Source of the DNA: Alistipes sp. CHKCI003
GTDB taxonomy: Bacteria > Bacteroidota > Bacteroidia > Bacteroidales > Rikenellaceae
Reading direction: 5' to 3'
Length of the DNA: 64,000 nucleotides
NCBI RefSeq assembly: GCF_900021155.1
Contig: NZ_FCNT01000012.1
Coordinates: forward strand, 62,001 to 126,000
Below the pieces are notes generated by a model that did not search any database, was not told the origin of the DNA, and saw only the letters and a list, made by a program, of their open reading frames with translations. Made by a program: the position numbers and the translations under genes. Shown in pieces: positions 3,563-62,787 of this stretch; the first letter of the stretch is position 1; the number at the start of each line of letters is the position of its first letter.

Positions 3563-3600
3563 AAAAAGGGCTGTCTTACACGTTTTAGACAGCCCTTTTT
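3563..3600. terminator. Perfect hairpin with A/T flanks, probable bidirectional terminator
   Basis: AAAAAGGGCTGTCT (3563-3576), a 10-nt loop, then AGACAGCCCTTTTT (3587-3600): a 14-bp perfect stem whose outer end is A-run/T-run, as in bidirectional intrinsic terminators. It lies beyond the end of the recombinase gene and would insulate the receptor promoter. Confidence 0.6.
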
Positions 3601-3752
3601 CATCCATACTGTATTCGGGAACTTTTCCGAATACGCAATTCCCAGAGGGTTGAAAATACTTGTTGGACAACCCTTATTCAATCGTACCGCCATTCCGGAG
3701 TTTGTCCGAACAGGCAATGCCCGAAGGGTAAAAAACTTGCCGGACAGCCTCT
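3563..3752. repeat. Tandem palindromic intergenic repeat, locus A
   Basis: Minus-strand orientation. Three boundary motifs related to GGGCTGTCT / GGRYTGTCC occur at 3595-3587, 3673-3665 and 3751-3742, spaced 78 and 77 bp, so there are two tandem units of about 78 bp. Each unit reads roughly boundary, CAAGTWTTTT, ACCCTYYGGG, an AT- and G-rich middle with TCGGA, then ATGAA or TTGAA just before the next boundary. Related copies are at 6871-6957, 14470-14548, 25536-25646 and 57262-57340. It fills the space between the recombinase 3' end and the upstream side of the receptor promoter. Confidence 0.75.
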
Positions 3753-6870: not shown

Positions 6871-6957
6871 CTTAGGGAAACGCATGTCCGGAAAAGACAC
6901 CGAACGGCGGTACGAACAAAAAGAGGCTGTCCGACAACATTCGGACAGCCTCTTTTT
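6871..6957. repeat. Palindromic intergenic repeat, locus B
   Basis: A single unit of the dispersed family. An interior resembling locus A (a GGGAAACGCATGTCCGGAAAAG segment, read as GGGAA, TCCGGAAAAG) ends in a hairpin from 6918 to 6957 in which GAGGCTGTCCGA pairs with TCGGACAGCCTC, flanked by five A on one side and five T on the other. It lies between convergent genes and probably acts as a bidirectional terminator. Confidence 0.7.
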
Positions 6958-19747: not shown

Positions 19748-20127
19748 TCCGACACAAGGCAGCCCGTCCGAAGCCGCTCCGTCCATACGGCGAAAAGCCT
19801 CACAACACTCCCTGCGCACGATTCCGCATCGCCCCCGCCGTCCGGTGTCCCCGGACACGCCGGTGTGCGGCACGGGCGGCGAGTACCGAGTGCAGCGTGC
19901 AGAGGGTATGTAGTGGGTATGTAGAGCGTGCGCGGGCAACATCGGACGCAGCCGGCACACGATATTCGGGTTCCGGCACTCGGATCGCAGGACGGAAAAA
20001 GGAACAGTCCGCGCCCGAAGCTCTCCGAAAACGGAAACCGCCCCGTCGGGATGTTTCCCGACGCGGGCGGAATCCGGAGAATCGAGGCGAACGGACGACT
20101 TCTCCGCTTTTCGCGGCAAAAGTCTTC
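19748..20127. other. Intergenic region, nothing recognised
   Basis: 380 bp between convergent genes. Apart from a short direct repeat GGGTATGTAG at about 19904-19924 I see no gene, terminator or repeat-family copy here. Confidence 0.4.
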
Positions 20128-22753: not shown

Positions 22754-22829
22754 AAGTCCGACACGTTTACTGGTATTATCCGCAACTGTCGTACCAAAAG
22801 CGCTGTCCGACAGCTCTCCCGCCATGAAA

Positions 22830-22861
22830 CACCCCCGCCGGAGGTATTTCCGGCAGGGGTG
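22830..22861 (-). terminator. Hairpin after the 22.9-24.3 kb lipoprotein
   Basis: CACCCCCGCCGGA, a 6-nt loop, TCCGGCAGGGGTG: a long stem with one mismatch, 40 bp after the lipoprotein stop. On the minus strand it is followed by TTTC. The stem closely resembles the inner hairpin of the 100-bp elements at 57651 and 61278. Confidence 0.65.
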
Positions 22862-22903
22862 GAATCGTAAAAAAACGGACTTCGGCGCGCCTTCCTTCCG
22901 CCG

Positions 22904-25222: not shown

Positions 25223-25698
25223 CGGCCGGGCGGCTGCCGCTCTCCGCCTTCCGCGCCAGAGACAACGACCGTCCTCCGAAAACGGTTCGGCCGAGCGGGA
25301 GGCGAATCAGATGCCGCACCGGAATAGAGCGGCGAGCCCGCTGTGCGGCCCTCGGCCCCGGCAGGCGGGATCAGCGGGGCAGCAGGCGGCAAAGAGCCGC
25401 AAGGGTACCGGCCGGCACAAAAGCCGAAGCCTTGCAGGAGAAGATGCACGTAGCGAAGATGCCGGCCGACGCCGAAATCCTACTCCCTGCCCGAAGTCCC
25501 GCACCAGAGGGAATCCGACCGGGCCGGTGGTTGTGAAGGGGCTGTCTAACACGTTTCCCAACCCTCTGAGAATTGCGTACTCCGAAAATTCTCGAATAGC
25601 AGTACGAATGAAAAAGGGGAGTCTAAAACGTGTCGGACAGCCCCTTGCGATATTCAGGCAGACAGCACCCCTGTGCGGACTCGCCGCCCGCACGCCCG
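25223..25698. other. Convergent intergenic region with repeat copy
   Basis: 476 bp between the CDGSH gene (+) and floA (-). The only structure recognised is the repeat family copy at 25536-25646; 25223-25535 shows nothing I can assign. Confidence 0.5.
25536..25646. repeat. Palindromic intergenic repeat, locus D
   Basis: Plus orientation. A boundary GGGGCTGTCT at 25538 and a second, partly deleted one (GGGGAGTCT) at 25616 lie 78 bp apart, the same period as locus A. The outer ends are inverted: GGGGCTGTCTAACACG at the left, CGTGTCGGACAGCCCC at the right. The interior CAACCCTCTGAGAATTGCGTA is almost identical to locus A read on its minus strand, and ACGAATGAAAAAGGGG matches too. Confidence 0.78.
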
Positions 25699-51010: not shown

Positions 51011-51409
51011 ACAGCGATAAACAGAGGCTTTCGGACACCGAACAGCAGGTCATACCGCACATCTTCGGACTTAAATCGCCCCTGCCGGAACCATATTCAC
51101 GGCAGGGGCGAAACCGTATGAAACCACTCGTTCGGACAACTGCGAAACCGCCGCGCAACCCGTTATCCCGCGAGAGCGGACATGCTCGTTGCGACAACCC
51201 CGCCACCGGGCTCGCAGCGGCAGTTGCAACTGAGGATCGCCCGCGGCGACAGGCTGCACCGGAATCCGAAATGCGGGCCGATCGGATCCAAAGCGCCTGC
51301 GAAAATGCCGTCCAGAGCGCACGCGGACGGTCTTGAAAAAGACTTTACGCCTCCCGCTGTTCCCTCCGCATCCGAAATGCGAACCCGTCTCCTGCAACGG
51401 CGCGGCCGT
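51011..51409. other. Convergent intergenic region with terminator
   Basis: 399 bp between the M23 gene (+) and proC (-). Apart from the hairpin at 51077-51110 I see nothing. Confidence 0.5.
51077..51110. terminator. Hairpin after the M23 peptidase gene
   Basis: CGCCCCTGCCG (51077-51087) and CGGCAGGGGCG (51100-51110), an 11-bp perfect stem, 66 bp after the stop. No strong T tract. It is similar in sequence to the hairpins at 22830 and inside the 100-bp elements. Confidence 0.6.
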
Positions 51410-57340: not shown

Positions 57341-57650
57341 CTTGCCTTGTTGCGTGAAATCGTCGGATAAACAGGAAGGTTCGTTCCGATATGGCCGAAG
57401 CCGGAAAGCGTCGAAACGGCGAATCGCTGCGACAAGCAAAATTCGAAGGGCATAGATAATGCTTCATCGCCGAAAACACCGCCGCCTCACTTTCCGAATG
57501 CTCCGGAAGATCCGCTGCACGGTGATGAAATACATATGCCTCTCCGACGAAGTACGACCGACCGCACACGAAACGCAGCGGCGGAAATGCCCGCATCGCA
57601 AGGCATGCAGGAACGCTGCGGAACCGGCTGAACGAACGGCCATGAACGGA

Positions 57651-57750
57651 AGGAGCTGTCTAACGAGTCTGATTTCAACGACTTCACCCCTGCCGGAATG
57701 AATTCCGACAGGGGTGATTTCCGATTTTCGGGACTTGTTAGACAGCCCCT
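57651..57750. repeat. 100-bp nested palindromic element, copy 1
   Basis: The outer ends AGGAGCTGTCTAAC and GTTAGACAGCCCCT form a 14-bp inverted repeat with one mismatch. The centre holds CACCCCTGCCGGA and TCCGACAGGGGTG, an inner 13-bp hairpin. Copy 2 at 61278-61377 differs at only five of 100 positions. The outer ends match those of the 78-bp family. Confidence 0.85.
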
Positions 57751-57843
57751 TCCGATCGGTCGTACGGCACGAAAGCACTCGAAAGCATCCGCCTCCCCGA
57801 ACCACCGGCCGAGTCCGGCGCCGCAGCCGACGGGCGATCCGTC

Positions 57844-58026
57844 TCATTTCATTTTATCGCGGATGAAAAGCAGATAGACGACGATTCCGATCCAACTGAA
57901 AAACAACAGCACCAGTGCCAACAGCACCTTGAGAGGCGTCTCGATGCTCCGTTTTCGCGCAAACAGATCGTACACGCACCAGATGCAGCACAGTACGCCG
58001 ATCCAATAGATGATTTCCGCCCACAT
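57844..58026 (-). CDS. Small two-helix membrane protein (PLDc_N-like)
   Basis: A 60-residue protein with two hydrophobic helices: about 5-20 (IIYWIGVLCCIWCVYDLF) and about 33-52 (VLLALVLLFFSWIGIVVYLL), ending FIRDKMK. This is the pattern of the stand-alone phospholipase-D N-terminal (PLDc_N) membrane domain: two helices with a W-x-G-x-x-x-Y-x-L turn. The start at 58026 lies 14 bp after the truA stop, so it is co-transcribed with truA. Function unknown. Confidence 0.75.
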   Translation of the reverse strand: MWAEIIYWIGVLCCIWCVYDLFARKRSIETPLKVLLALVLLFFSWIGIVVYLLFIRDKMK

Positions 58027-58040
58027 ATATTCCGTCTGTT

Positions 58041-58799
58041 TTACAGTTTCCGTTCGAACACTTCGGACGGGTAGAGCACATCGCTCAGAAACAACCCCTG
58101 CGCAGGAGCTCCGCTGCTCGAACGGGCAAGATCGCGGCTCTCTACAATCGCACGAAACTGCTCCGGCGTATAGCGTCCGCGGCCCACATCGACCAGCGTT
58201 CCTACGACCGACCGCACCATATTCCGCAAAAACCGGTCCGCACGGATCGTAAAACACAAAACACCGCCGACATTTTCCGTCCACTCCGCCCGTAAAATGC
58301 GGCAAATATTGGTCCTATTGTTCGAATTGAGTTTTGCGAACGAAGTAAAATCATCGAATTCGAGCAGATATGCCGCAGCGGCATTCATACGCGCTACATC
58401 CAGCGGCACATAATACTGCCACGACGTGCCCCGCGTAAAAGGATTTTTGCGCGGCTCGATGAAGTAGCGGTACTCCCGTTCGCGCGCGCTGAAGCGGGCA
58501 TGCGCCTCGGGAGCGACGGGTGTGAGCGACAAAAGAGCAATATCCTCGGGAAGCAGAAAATTAGCCTTATAAAGCGTTCGTCCGGGGTCGGCGATCGGTT
58601 CCGCACTATCGAAATGAGCCACATAATAAAGCGCATGCACGCCGGTGTCCGTACGGCCCGCTCCCGTTACTTCGATCGGCTGACGCAACAGGGTGGAGAG
58701 GCCCCGTTCGAGCGTCTGCTGCACCGACGGCTGGTCGGGTTGACGCTGCCAGCCGCAGTAAGCCGCTCCGTTGTAGCTCAATTCGATAAAATAACGCAT
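58041..58799 (-). CDS. truA: tRNA pseudouridine synthase A
   Basis: A 252-residue enzyme that makes pseudouridine at positions 38-40 of tRNA. The catalytic aspartate is D51 in GAGRTDTGVHA; MRYFIELSYNGAAYCGWQRQ is the family N-terminus, with FLRNMVRSVVGTLVDVGRG near the C-terminus. The ATG at 58799 is chosen for that N-terminus; the frame stays open upstream without homology. Confidence 0.95.
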   Translation of the reverse strand: MRYFIELSYNGAAYCGWQRQPDQPSVQQTLERGLSTLLRQPIEVTGAGRTDTGVHALYYVAHFDSAEPIADPGRTLYKANFLLPEDIALLSLTPVAPEAHARFSAREREYRYFIEPRKNPFTRGTSWQYYVPLDVARMNAAAAYLLEFDDFTSFAKLNSNNRTNICRILRAEWTENVGGVLCFTIRADRFLRNMVRSVVGTLVDVGRGRYTPEQFRAIVESRDLARSSSGAPAQGLFLSDVLYPSEVFERKL

Positions 58800-59607
58800 T
58801 TCACTCGTTTTTATATTCGCCGTATTTCGCTCAGTGGCACAGGCCCTCTGCCGGTCCGGTCGAGACCGACGGGGACCGGCCGCCGGGGTATCCGGACAAA
58901 AATACGAAAAAAACACGGTTTCTGTCCGTCGAACACCCAAAAACCGCGGTACTACGAGAAAACAGCCCATCCGGCAAGCTGCACCTCCCCCGTTCCGGAG
59001 GAGCCGGACGCAGTCCGTTGCCGCAACCGCACGAGAAGGCGGCGCCGCGGCGAAGCATCGACAAGGCGGCATCGTGCGGAGCATCGGCCAACGGCCGGCA
59101 GCATGCGGCACCGGCACAGCCGACCTCGATGCACCTGTCCGGCGAATCGGGAAAAAACGAACACGGTTCCGCAATGTGCACACGCACGACGGCGACACGC
59201 TTACGGACCGCGACGCCGGACCATCCGGGCGAACGTACCGGGCGAATACCGAATCGTACACCGTCCACACCGGAGAGAGGAGTGAAGGAGAAAAACAGAA
59301 AGCTCAACAGGCGCGGCGGAACAGCACATCAAGAGTGAAGGGGCGGCGAAAGATAACCGCACAAACACCCGATGTAACCTGAAAAACAGACTTCGAACCC
59401 GAACGATAAAGGACACGAGCTCCCAACAACGACTGACAGCCGACGGAACAAGAAAGCGAGTTCCCGATCGACGAATAGACACGAAGCCGAAAGAGCAACC
59501 GGACAAGAAAACGAGAAGGCAGTGGAACGAGACGGCAAGCTCCCCTAAAAACGACAAACGCAAGGGGGCGGACGGACAAGAATATGCAGGCAGGTTCGAC
59601 GAAACCA
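58800..59607. other. Long non-coding region between truA and aspA
   Basis: About 800 bp upstream of truA and downstream of aspA (both minus). The truA promoter must lie at its left end but was not resolved. From about 59270 to 59590 the plus strand is strongly purine-rich. Minus frames of 90-135 codons across it are leucine-, serine-, phenylalanine- and cysteine-rich, as expected of a pyrimidine-rich strand, and I do not support them as genes. Confidence 0.5.
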
Positions 59608-59636
59608 CAGAGGCGACCCTCGAAAGGTCGCCTCTG
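59608..59636 (-). terminator. Terminator of aspA
   Basis: CAGAGGCGACC and GGTCGCCTCTG form an 11-bp perfect stem with a 7-nt loop, 23 bp after the aspA stop; TGGTTTCG follows on the minus strand. Confidence 0.75.
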
Positions 59637-59658
59637 TCTATGCGAAAACCTGCACGGG

Positions 59659-61092
59659 TCAGCGTCGCGGTTTGATGTCGAGTTTCACCGGACGGATCAT
59701 ATTCTCCGGTTTGAGTATCTCGTCGAGTTCCTCCTTGCTGAGGATGCCGTGTTCGAGCACCAACTCATACACGCCGCGCCCCGATTCGAGCGCCTCCTTG
59801 GCGATTTTGGTCGAATTCTTATAGCCGATGATCGGATTGAGGGCGGTAACGACGCCGATGCTGTCGTGCACGTATCGGCGGCAGCGCTCCTCGTTGGCCG
59901 TGATTCCGTCGATGCAGCGGATGCGCAGCGTATCGAAACCGTTCATCAGCAGATCGGCCGACTCGAAGCAGCACTGAGCCATCACTGGCTCCATGGCATT
60001 GAGCTCCATCTGTGCGGCTTCGTTGCTCATCGTAACGCACAATTCGTTGCCGATCACTTTATAGGCGATCTGGTTCATCACCTCGGGAATCACGGGGTTC
60101 ACCTTGCCGGGCATGATCGACGAACCGGGCTGACGGGCCGGCAGATTGATCTCGCCCAGACCGCAGCGGGGACCCGAGGCCAGCAGGCGCAGGTCGTTGC
60201 AGATCTTGTTCATCTTGGTGGCAACGCGCTTCATAGCCGCGGCATAGCCCACCATGCACGAGGTGTCGGACGTTACGCCCACCAGATCGCCCGCCAGACG
60301 GATGTCCCAGCCCGTGATTTCGGCGATGGCCTTCGTGCAGCGCTCGGCATATCCCGGAACGGCGCAGATACCCGTACCGATCGCCGTGGCACCCATGTTG
60401 ATCGTCAGGAACTCGCGTGCGGCATGGTCGAGGTTCTCGATTTCGGCTTCGAGGATGCTCGCAAAGCCGTGGAACGTTTGGCCGAGGGTCATCGGCACGG
60501 CGTCTTCGAGCTGCGTGCGGCCCATCTTGATTATGCCGGCGAACTCTTCCGCCTTGCGCATGAAAGCGGCGATCAGCTCCTTATAGTGCTGCATCAGCTT
60601 GAGGTGCGTGGCATACAGACCGATGTGGATGGCCGAGGGATAGGCGTCGTTGGTCGACTGCGAGCAGTTGACGTGGTCGTTGGGCGAGCAGTACTGGTAT
60701 TCGCCGCGCTCATGGCCCATGATCTCCAGCGCACGGTTGGCGATCACCTCGTTGGCATTCATGTTGGTGGTCGTACCGGCGCCGCCCTGAATCATGTCGA
60801 CGGGGAAATACTCGTGGAACTTGCCGTCCATAATTTCGCGGCAGGCCTGCGAAATGGCTTCGAATTGTTCGTCGGTCAAAAGGCCGAGGTCGTGGTTGGC
60901 GATGGCGGCGCCGAGCTTCACGACGGCCAGTCCGTTCACGAAGAGGGGATACTGGTCGAGACGGAAAGTGCTGATCGGGAAATTCTCCAGACCGCGCAGG
61001 GTCTGCACGCCGTACAAAACGTCGCAAGGTACCTCCACGCTGCCGAGCAGGTCGCTCTCGGTGCGGGTTTTAACATTCAGGTCAGTCTTCAT
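59659..61092 (-). CDS. aspA: Aspartate ammonia-lyase
   Basis: A 477-residue member of the fumarase/aspartase family that converts aspartate to fumarate and ammonia. The signature loop GSSIMPGKVNPVIPEVMNQI, the QGGAGTTTNMNANEVIANRA region and SQSTNDAYPSAIHI are present. ESDLLGSVEVPCDVLYGVQT is closer to aspartase than to fumarase C. In gut Bacteroidales this feeds fumarate respiration. Single gene with a terminator. Confidence 0.92.
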   Translation of the reverse strand: MKTDLNVKTRTESDLLGSVEVPCDVLYGVQTLRGLENFPISTFRLDQYPLFVNGLAVVKLGAAIANHDLGLLTDEQFEAISQACREIMDGKFHEYFPVDMIQGGAGTTTNMNANEVIANRALEIMGHERGEYQYCSPNDHVNCSQSTNDAYPSAIHIGLYATHLKLMQHYKELIAAFMRKAEEFAGIIKMGRTQLEDAVPMTLGQTFHGFASILEAEIENLDHAAREFLTINMGATAIGTGICAVPGYAERCTKAIAEITGWDIRLAGDLVGVTSDTSCMVGYAAAMKRVATKMNKICNDLRLLASGPRCGLGEINLPARQPGSSIMPGKVNPVIPEVMNQIAYKVIGNELCVTMSNEAAQMELNAMEPVMAQCCFESADLLMNGFDTLRIRCIDGITANEERCRRYVHDSIGVVTALNPIIGYKNSTKIAKEALESGRGVYELVLEHGILSKEELDEILKPENMIRPVKLDIKPRR

Positions 61093-61277
61093 AATTGTTA
61101 CGATATGCTTTTGTTTTCAAGTTGTAAAGTTTCTGTTTGCAAGCGAAATATCACATAAAGGTAATAATTATTTCCCATTCTCCAAAATTTAACCCGCAAT
61201 CCTCCGAATATTTCCGCGATCTCGGCCGGACGCCCGATCCCCCGAAAGACAAGGACCGACCGTATCTATCTGAAAAA

Positions 61278-61377
61278 AGGAGCTGTCTAACAAGTCTGAT
61301 TTCAACGATTTCACCCCTGCCGGAATGAATTCCGGCAGGGGTGATTTCCGATTTTCGGGACTTGTCAGACAGCCCCC
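61278..61377. repeat. 100-bp nested palindromic element, copy 2
   Basis: The second copy of the element at 57651-57750, in the same orientation: outer ends AGGAGCTGTCTAAC and GTCAGACAGCCCCC, inner perfect hairpin CACCCCTGCCGGA / TCCGGCAGGGGTG around AATGAATT. It begins 10 bp after the flavodoxin stop and 186 bp before aspA, so it could terminate flavodoxin transcripts. Confidence 0.85.
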
Positions 61378-61387
61378 GCTTGCACGA

Positions 61388-61954
61388 TCATTCGATCGCC
61401 CGCCGGGCCCAATCCGCGGCCTGCTCCGTACTTCCGTTGCACAGCCGCCCCTCTCTCCATTCGATTTCCGGATAGAGTGCCCCGAGCTTCCTGACGCTGC
61501 CCGCGATCGAACTGCTCCCGGAGGTGGCGAAAGGAATGACCGTCTTGCCGGAAAAATCATACTTTTCGAGGAACGTATTGACCGCGCGCGGACACGCATC
61601 CCACCAAATCGGATAACCGAGGAACACCGCATCGTACTCTGCCGGGTCGAGACTTCCACCGCCCAACGCAGGGCGCGAGTTCTCATCGGCCATCTCCTTC
61701 GAGCTGCGGCTGGATTCGTCGGTCCAATCCAGATCCGCCGGGGTGTAAGCCACGGCCGGCACGATCCGGTACAGATCGCCGTCGACCGCCCGGGCAATGG
61801 CCGAGGCCGCTTTTTCCGTGGTTCCCGTACAGGAGAAATAGGCCACGAGGATTTTCCCGCCCGGCTGCCGGACGGCATCCGCCGGCTGTTCTTGTGCTTT
61901 CGTCGGGCTGCTGAACACGAGTAAACTCATAATTAACAATACGATCTGTTTCAT
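61388..61954 (-). CDS. Exported flavodoxin
   Basis: A 188-residue flavodoxin with an N-terminal signal peptide (MKQIVLLIMSLLVFSSPTKA, cleavage near residue 21). The mature part has the FMN phosphate loop YFSCTGTTEKAASAIA and the second loop VFLGYPIWWDACPRAVNTFL, then FATSGSSSIAGSVRKL. An exported flavodoxin is unusual because most act in the cytoplasm. The ATG at 61954 overlaps nothing but is 2 bp after the preceding gene's stop, so the two are co-translated. Confidence 0.9.
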   Translation of the reverse strand: MKQIVLLIMSLLVFSSPTKAQEQPADAVRQPGGKILVAYFSCTGTTEKAASAIARAVDGDLYRIVPAVAYTPADLDWTDESSRSSKEMADENSRPALGGGSLDPAEYDAVFLGYPIWWDACPRAVNTFLEKYDFSGKTVIPFATSGSSSIAGSVRKLGALYPEIEWREGRLCNGSTEQAADWARRAIE

Positions 61955-61956
61955 CA

Positions 61957-62787
61957 CTATTTCAATTTAGCATATTCTTCATCGCTTACGGGCTCCAGCC
62001 ATTCGTTGCTGCAACCTTTGCCGGGGACCTCGATGGCGAGGTGCGAAAACCAACTGTCGGGTGCCGCTCCGTGCCAATGCTTCACACCAGCCGGAATATA
62101 GACCGCATCGCCCGGGCGCAGTTCGACCGCCTCTTGGCCCCACAACTGATAATACCCGCGACCGCCCACGCACACGAGCGTTTGCCCGCCCCCTTCGTCC
62201 GCCTCGTGCACATGCCAATTGTTGCGGCACCCCGGCTCGAAAGTTACGTTGACTACGGGTGCGCCCCCGGCCGCGACGGGCGCCAGATAGCTCCGGCCCA
62301 CGAAATACTCGGCATAGGCATCGTTCGGGCGGCCCACCGGAAAAAGGAGGGTCTGCGCATACGCTTCGAGCGAACCGGGAGCCGCACCGTCCGTCTCGTC
62401 CGCCCACACCTCCTTGGCCATGCGGAAAGCCGCCCAAGCTTTGGGCCAACCCGCATAAAATGCGGCATGAGTGAGAATTTCGGCCATCTCGGTTCGCGTT
62501 ACCCCGTTCTTCTTCGCCGATTCGAGATGGTATTCGAACGAGGAATCGGTCAACCCCTGCGACATGAGGGCGACCACCGTAACGACGGAGCGGTCCCGCA
62601 GCGAAAGCAGGTCGTTGCGGCTCCACACCTCCCCGAACAGCACATCGTCGTTCAGACGCGCGAATTCGGGTGCAAACGCTCCGAGCGCATCGCGTCCGGC
62701 GGTCTGCTTGATTTTTACTTGAGATTTTGCCATGATCGGAAAAAATAAAGTCAACAATAGCATGAATGAAGTCATCTGCGGTTTCAT
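61957..62787 (-). CDS. Exported carboxymuconolactone-decarboxylase/cupin fusion protein
   Basis: A 276-residue exported protein: signal peptide about 1-22 (MTSFMLLLTLFFPIMAKS), then an AhpD-like carboxymuconolactone decarboxylase domain at about 30-130 (LLSLRDRSVVTVVALMSQGL, TRTEMAEILTHAAFYAGWPKAW). A cupin domain follows at about 165-255 (NVTFEPGCRNNWHVHEADEG, GDAVYIPAGVKHWHGA) with the metal-binding histidines. The CMD part lacks the CxxC of AhpD peroxidases. Role unknown; carbon-skeleton or quinone metabolism and peroxide handling are both possible. The ATG at 62787 gives the signal peptide; 62775 is an alternative. Confidence 0.88.
   Translation of the reverse strand: MKPQMTSFMLLLTLFFPIMAKSQVKIKQTAGRDALGAFAPEFARLNDDVLFGEVWSRNDLLSLRDRSVVTVVALMSQGLTDSSFEYHLESAKKNGVTRTEMAEILTHAAFYAGWPKAWAAFRMAKEVWADETDGAAPGSLEAYAQTLLFPVGRPNDAYAEYFVGRSYLAPVAAGGAPVVNVTFEPGCRNNWHVHEADEGGGQTLVCVGGRGYYQLWGQEAVELRPGDAVYIPAGVKHWHGAAPDSWFSHLAIEVPGKGCSNEWLEPVSDEEYAKLK

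Follow-up and report, generated by a model that had tools for sequence, protein, structure and literature searches.

Results

Organization of the locus

Two minus-strand genes of the window (the whole stretch of DNA analysed, 64,000 nucleotides), encoding a flavodoxin-family protein and a lyase of the aspartase/fumarase type, flank the 98-bp element studied here (Table 1). A 524-aa open frame on the plus strand (window 59584-61158), antisense to the lyase gene, was twice picked by simple gene callers; a dicodon gene-calling model and its self-training version, both of which assigned the lyase gene to the opposite strand, were dropped. A second copy of the element lies beside a small membrane-protein gene. 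An earlier note on this DNA had described a nested palindrome occurring twice, 3.6 kb apart, and both copies are present one base away from where it had placed them, with 57650-57749 and 61277-61376 being 96% identical over 100 nt. Alignment of the family set the limits of the element proper at 98 bp in both copies.

The 18-bp ends of the element pair with each other, and a hairpin with a 15-bp stem is nested within them. Folding of either strand of both copies gave these nested helices at −60.4 to −72 kcal/mol (z −9.1 to −11.1), with none of 200 shuffles as stable. Read on the minus strand, the 61279 copy presents a GC-rich hairpin and then a U tract after the gene, fitting the pattern of an intrinsic terminator; a simple terminator scan of 50-64 kb listed neither copy, and Rfam gave no match at gathering score in the window. 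Copies that are otherwise similar have either GAATGAATTC or its reverse complement, GAATTCATTC, at the centre of the inner hairpin, which would fit an inversion of the loop.

Table 1. Coordinates of the elements, their parts and the neighbouring genes in the window.
Feature	Coordinates	Strand	Basis
98-bp element, copy under study	61279..61376	+	Covariance model E 1.5e-27, family alignment
98-bp element, second window copy	57652..57749	+	Covariance model E 8.4e-27
Left terminal inverted repeat	61279..61296	+	Family alignment; equals IS end
Right terminal inverted repeat	61359..61376	-	Family alignment; equals IS end
Inner hairpin, 15-bp stem	61311..61344	+	Folding, pairing analysis
Inner hairpin, second copy	57684..57717	+	Folding, pairing analysis
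A6 on the plus strand; U tract directly past the element for minus-strand transcription from the flavodoxin gene	61273..61278	-	
CGGAA, complementary to TTCCG at 57750-57754; left side of a stem possibly left over from a replaced hairpin	57647..57651	+	One case, weak statistics
TTCCG, right side of that possible stem remnant	57750..57754	+	
Probable decayed 98-bp element ("terminator" 22830), 12 bp after a minus-strand gene	22799..22891	-	Model E 4.5e-7
Probable decayed 98-bp element ("terminator" 51077), 34 bp after a plus-strand gene	51045..51143	-	Model E 3.9e-5
Candidate decayed copy of the 98-bp element, 33 bp past a fimbrillin-like gene (Pfam)	20005..20094	-	Model E 2.1e-8
Flavodoxin-family gene, stop 11 bp from the 61279 element	61388..61957	-	Pfam PF12682, 4.6e-59
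Lyase gene (aspartase/fumarase type), other side of the 61279 element	59659..61092	-	PF00206, 6e-85
Gene for a small membrane protein, its stop 94 bp from the 57652 copy	57844..58026	-	PF13396, 2e-5
109-type sister MITE, end hairpin on the right	25538..25644	+	
109-type sister MITE, reverse orientation, end hairpin 3567-3596	3567..3674	-	

A dispersed family within one genus

Searches of the genome (G000; 105 contigs, 2.87 Mb in total) revealed that the two copies belong to a large family. The pattern GCTGTCTRACAAG, with at most one mismatch, occurred 62 times on each strand, compared to 2 and 7 times for a reversed-pattern control. The copy at 61276-61379 had 15 other near full-length matches (E 1.2e-44 to 5.8e-22), giving 16 with the query itself, on contigs 5, 9, 17, 26, 47, 51, 73 and 99. 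Among the matches listed for a covariance model built from 23 copies of the element (41 of 954 candidates scored), at least 28 distinct places lay in this genome. The closest relative of the 61279 copy was C5:96843 (98%) and that of the 57652 copy was C9:21129 (96.9%), compared to 95.9% identity between the two. Local duplication of the window copies was thus ruled out, each having a closer relative elsewhere, and by sequence they belong to a family scattered over the whole genome. The suggestion of the earlier note that their near identity reflects recent duplication or movement therefore divides: movement is favored by the IS1182-type ends, the dispersed copies and the copies within copies described below, and recent duplication of one from the other is not.

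With strict filters, the family was present in 14 of the 101 genomes searched, all of one genus. Two genomes of the same genus, G069 and G002, matched the model 29 and 23 times, each time more weakly than did the full copies in G000; these matches perhaps represent older bursts of the same family. Paired changes were seen in both helices: 14 of the 33 base pairs changed on both sides, a count equalled in one of 500 shuffles, and the covariation score, 0.185 versus 0.133, was reached by none of 500 shuffles and fell to 0.05-0.10 with slid partners, with shuffles that do not preserve the relatedness of the copies.

Two patterns searched in viral contigs gave no match, as did plasmids. Phage records contained two matches for the 98-bp element and none for the 109-bp MITE described below. 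The two records, L305 (MT839345.1) and L306 (MT837403.1), are unannotated, labelled "Bacteriophage sp." and derived from human feces in Mexico. They contain ssb and acetyltransferase genes with matches of 67-85% to genomes of the same genus, and by sequence they look like pieces of the chromosome of this bacterial genus.

Probable decayed copies in the window

The earlier note had remarked that the interior of the element resembles plain terminators at 22830 and 51077, and this resemblance is real, as judged by the covariance model with its rough E-values (Table 1). Both matches were full-length and included the ends, suggesting that the two are probably decayed copies of the family; that they are independent terminators is unlikely by the full covariance model, whose E-values are rough. 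A test using only the arms was weak, with p-values for the two arms of 0.04 and 0.45 at 22830 and of 0.009 and 0.82 at 51077, and at 22830 it picked the strand opposite to that chosen by the covariance model, so the case for decay at both places rests on the model. The match at 20005-20094, absent from the earlier note, scored better than either.

In 14 young copies the inner stem and the ends had diverged alike (5% and 6%). In nine old copies the inner stem was 89.5% paired and 20% diverged, versus 73.8% and 30% for the ends. We did not count this retention of the inner hairpin as a sign of selection because the old copies were found partly via that hairpin.

Ends shared with an IS1182-family insertion sequence

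The same genome carries an insertion sequence (IS) whose transposase matched the NCBIfam IS1182 model (NF033551) with 425.3 bits, well above the cut-off of 270. The ends of the 98-bp element, GGGGCTGTCTAACAA, agree with both IS ends at 14-15 of their first 15 positions, and each IS end alone folds into a hairpin. Five left and four right IS ends (the latter on C35, C65, C25 and C76) sit at contig ends and no unbroken IS copy was seen, as expected where a repeat breaks the assembly. The 98-bp element is short, lacks coding capacity, has terminal inverted repeats and is present in many dispersed copies. Together with the ends that it has in common with this IS1182-family insertion sequence, these features are best read as those of a MITE, presumably moved in trans by the transposase of that IS.

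The best 80 of 582 matches to the IS were at most 61% identical, and a match to its transposase was found in five of 61 genomes, its own included. Two genomes that contain elements, G002 and G023, gave no match to this transposase in the same search of 61 genomes, which speaks against simple, ongoing mobilisation across the whole genus. In Draconibacterium orientale and Massilibacteroides vaginae, IS1182-family copies (L248-L259 and L287-L292) have hairpin-like ends and are in several cases flanked by an A tract on one side and a T tract on the other, which would fit a location within terminators here as well.

Nesting with a sister family

The ends of the 98-bp element recur in a second MITE family, whose members are about 109 bp long and have a different interior and a 30-bp hairpin at one end. 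The 78-bp family to whose ends the earlier note had matched the element is probably the 79-bp body of this family. Through the shared ends, the 98-bp covariance model also gives a weak match to the 109-type element at 25538 (E 4e-4).

At two places, C12:7512-7692 and C80:8214-8395, a 98-bp element is intact save for its inner hairpin, and a 109-bp MITE stands in that place, bounded by TTTCAC and by GTGATTT (C12) or ATGATTT (C80). The stem was cut at the same position in both, with CAC on the left, and at both, as described for IS1272-like elements, a hairpin target has lost its top. A free copy at C77:19416 shares 98.2% identity with the C12 insert, compared to 88.2% for the C80 insert; with such different ancestries, the two events look independent.

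Conversely, five 98-bp elements occupy the place of the end hairpin of a 109-bp MITE (C51:202310, C5:73632, C99:14040, C99:17936 and C12:7434). The orientation of C99:14040 is opposite to that of C51:202310 and C5:73632, indicating at least two events of this kind; the other cases may descend from one composite that moved as a unit. The C12 locus is a 109-bp element inside a 98-bp element inside a 109-bp element. Solo hairpins of about 30 bp, consisting of two end sequences with nothing between, were seen at window 6921-6956, C5:100774-100803 and C51:3001-3030, and could be minimal elements, remnants or targets.

Position of the elements relative to genes

For the analysis of flanking DNA, 55 pairs of flanks were chosen by element length (95-112 bp or composite lengths) and four sub-parts were removed by hand; leaving out the two nested inserts and one duplicated flank gave 52 pairs. 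Genes were called with a home-made gene caller trained on six genes, five recognized by codon-position substitution patterns and one by eye, the last later confirmed by Pfam. This caller misses the small gene at 57844 and the gene at 58041, so that the facing distance of the 57652 copy was entered as 921 despite a stop codon 94 bp away.

Fifty-one of the 52 elements were faced by a called 3′ gene end, which lay within 50 bp in 24 cases and within 100 bp in 35. Where both neighbours were called (40 elements), 19 pairs were convergent, 21 tandem and none divergent, and 17 of the 21 tandem elements lay nearer the end of the upstream gene (one-sided binomial ~0.004). Among window gaps of at least 40 bp, 4 of 24 were divergent but made up only 1.1 of 17.4 kb of gap length (6%), which makes the absence of divergent cases a weak argument when taken by itself; this positional background comes from one window and the home-made gene caller.

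An A tract was present on the left of 15 of the 52 elements and a T tract on the right of 13, compared to backgrounds of 1.6% and 1.2% taken from the whole window rather than from intergenic DNA. Complementarity between the two flanks was weakly enriched in the 52 pairs (p 0.0056 at 8 bases, ~0.2 at 4-6 bases and 0.04 by energy), with p 0.0012 at 8 bases for all 55; the 57652 copy was the best single case, and the 61279 copy shows none. Target duplication, typical though not universal in MITEs, was absent: no direct repeat of at least 3 bases was found in any of the 52 pairs, as expected for IS1272-like elements.

Orthologous slots in the same genus

The region from 50.8 to 58.8 kb is syntenic in eight genomes of the same genus, and in six the synteny continues to 61.1 kb. 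At the 51077 slot, G019, G023, G024, G027 and G034 each have a strong hairpin, unlike the element, after the same gene; the hairpins are similar among G024, G027 and G034, and none was pinpointed in G008. In the gap at 57650, the three relatives compared (G019, G024 and G027) lack the 98-bp element and carry strong hairpins unlike it. The earlier note had proposed orthologous sites as a check on mobility, and here the outcome favored its suggestion. Reading of the loci in G019, G008 and G034 showed a different neighbour of the lyase gene, which precluded comparison at the 61277 site.

Two further slots came from the fecal records. The element lies ~15 bp after ssb (Pfam SSB 1.3e-35) in L305 and ~23 bp after it in G002, while other hairpins follow ssb in G023, G084, G019, G072 and G073 and a weaker one in G000; these are states found side by side rather than an established descent of the filled species from ones with other hairpins. 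The G023 hairpin, which shares some outer letters with the hairpin of the element, could be a remnant of it. In L306 the element starts 6 bp after the acetyltransferase gene, a slot at which G023 and G084 have other hairpins. In total, species of the same genus bear other hairpins at four orthologous slots.

Discussion

Proposed insertion by hairpin replacement

We propose that the 98-bp element is a non-autonomous IS1182-type MITE that inserts by hairpin replacement, mostly at terminators after genes, a reading that we consider likely from the sequences compared. Acted on in trans by an IS1182-family transposase, the element would insert into a hairpin stem, in most cases that of an intrinsic terminator lying directly behind a gene. 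The upper part of the target hairpin would be lost and the element would take over its place with no target duplication, while the outer A and T tracts would stay, in some cases along with a few base pairs of the former stem. The gene would probably keep a terminator, since the element itself folds into nested hairpins, so that insertion would cost little. The inner hairpin would in turn serve as a target for sister elements, giving rise to nested copies.

Several parts of this proposal can be read directly from the DNA, namely the shared ends, the dispersal, the sister MITE exactly in the place of the inner hairpin, the absence of target duplication, the position of the elements after genes and the different hairpins that related species carry at the corresponding slots. 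Hairpin replacement is thus supported by sequence at the nested sites and by position elsewhere. At ordinary gene slots, we infer replacement rather than a later take-over, and likewise that the element acts as a terminator.

An IS1182-type MITE might instead pick intergenic, A/T-rich targets after genes, the old terminator decaying later because the element supplies one, and nesting might arise by deletion or recombination between similar ends. The weak residual pairing of the flanks would fit such ordinary target choice, as would the comparison of relatives, which shows slot-by-slot differences rather than the event, and the shared ends offer some homology for recombination. Nevertheless, what is missing from the 98-bp elements at C12 and C80 is precisely the inner hairpin, with both arms retained; the break falls at one and the same point of the stem in the two, and their inserts differ in ancestry. 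These junctions do not lie at the shared ends, and target duplication is absent. We regard this explanation as unlikely. The earlier note had envisaged that mobile ends recently captured a host terminator such as that at 22830 or 51077, an account to which the terminator-like inner hairpin lends some appeal, as does the tendency of such hairpin elements to end up in or around hairpins. In the form in which it was put, however, capture is not supported, given the full-length matches of 22830 and 51077 to the element model, ends included, which make them look like decayed family members, although the arms-only test is weaker. Decayed full-length copies in other species of the genus further indicate that the interior is old, making recent capture highly improbable.

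We give least credence to a non-mobile, vertically inherited family of terminators or structured RNAs spread by gene conversion or duplication, which seems scarcely tenable. Paired changes in both helices and the location of copies after genes would be in keeping with it, and with no Rfam match in the window such an RNA could be an undescribed one; against it stand the ends common to an IS, the copies within other repeats, the different slots filled in different species and the restriction to 14 of 101 genomes under strict filters.

Relation to known elements

IS1272, TnSha1 and TnSha2, IS1182-family elements of Staphylococcus, are reported in the available parts of two studies to insert into hairpins with loss of part or all of the target and without target duplication; their targets include terminators, and hairpins A-E were confirmed by RNA-seq (PMC4923244, PMC5678879). 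The family described here is like them in its presumed IS1182-family transposase, hairpin targets, target loss and lack of duplication. In contrast to those elements, which from the same partial accounts are kilobases long and carry the transposase gene, it consists of gene-less 98- and 109-bp hairpins that replace each other's hairpins.

Other short repeats resemble the element in part. SPRITE, BOX and RUP of Streptococcus pneumoniae are short repeats that insert into one another, SPRITE being terminator-like, but neither IS1182 ends nor hairpin replacement is mentioned for them in the available part of the source (PMC10969869). The BrickBuilt MITE of Porphyromonas gingivalis is likewise an intergenic MITE of a Bacteroidota species (PMC10969869), but it contains a minisatellite (PMC4596501), and the accessible portions of these sources gave no link to IS1182 or to terminators. 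The 102-bp MITEPsy3 of Pseudomonas syringae pv. actinidiae is similar in length and high in copy number, but is ascribed to ISPsy25 and interrupts genes, and hairpin targets are not mentioned in the part of the paper available (PMC6053426). No description of MITEs of the present kind was found in a literature search whose scope excluded most subscription journals. The mode of transposition is known already; what appears to be new is the occurrence of gene-less IS1182-type elements in terminator slots that swap one another's hairpins.

These elements arrive at the same outcome as staphylococcal IS1272 in another phylum, with tiny gene-less elements and with nested copies that show which target sequence was lost. 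Should every insertion exchange one terminator for another, this would account both for the spread of a mobile element that does no damage and for the complete differences between related species in the terminators that follow conserved genes. Tentatively, the family may represent a transposon lineage that trades in terminators, supplying the function that it removes and offering its own inner hairpin as the next landing site, with continual replacement of terminators across the genus and old copies staying on as ordinary terminators.
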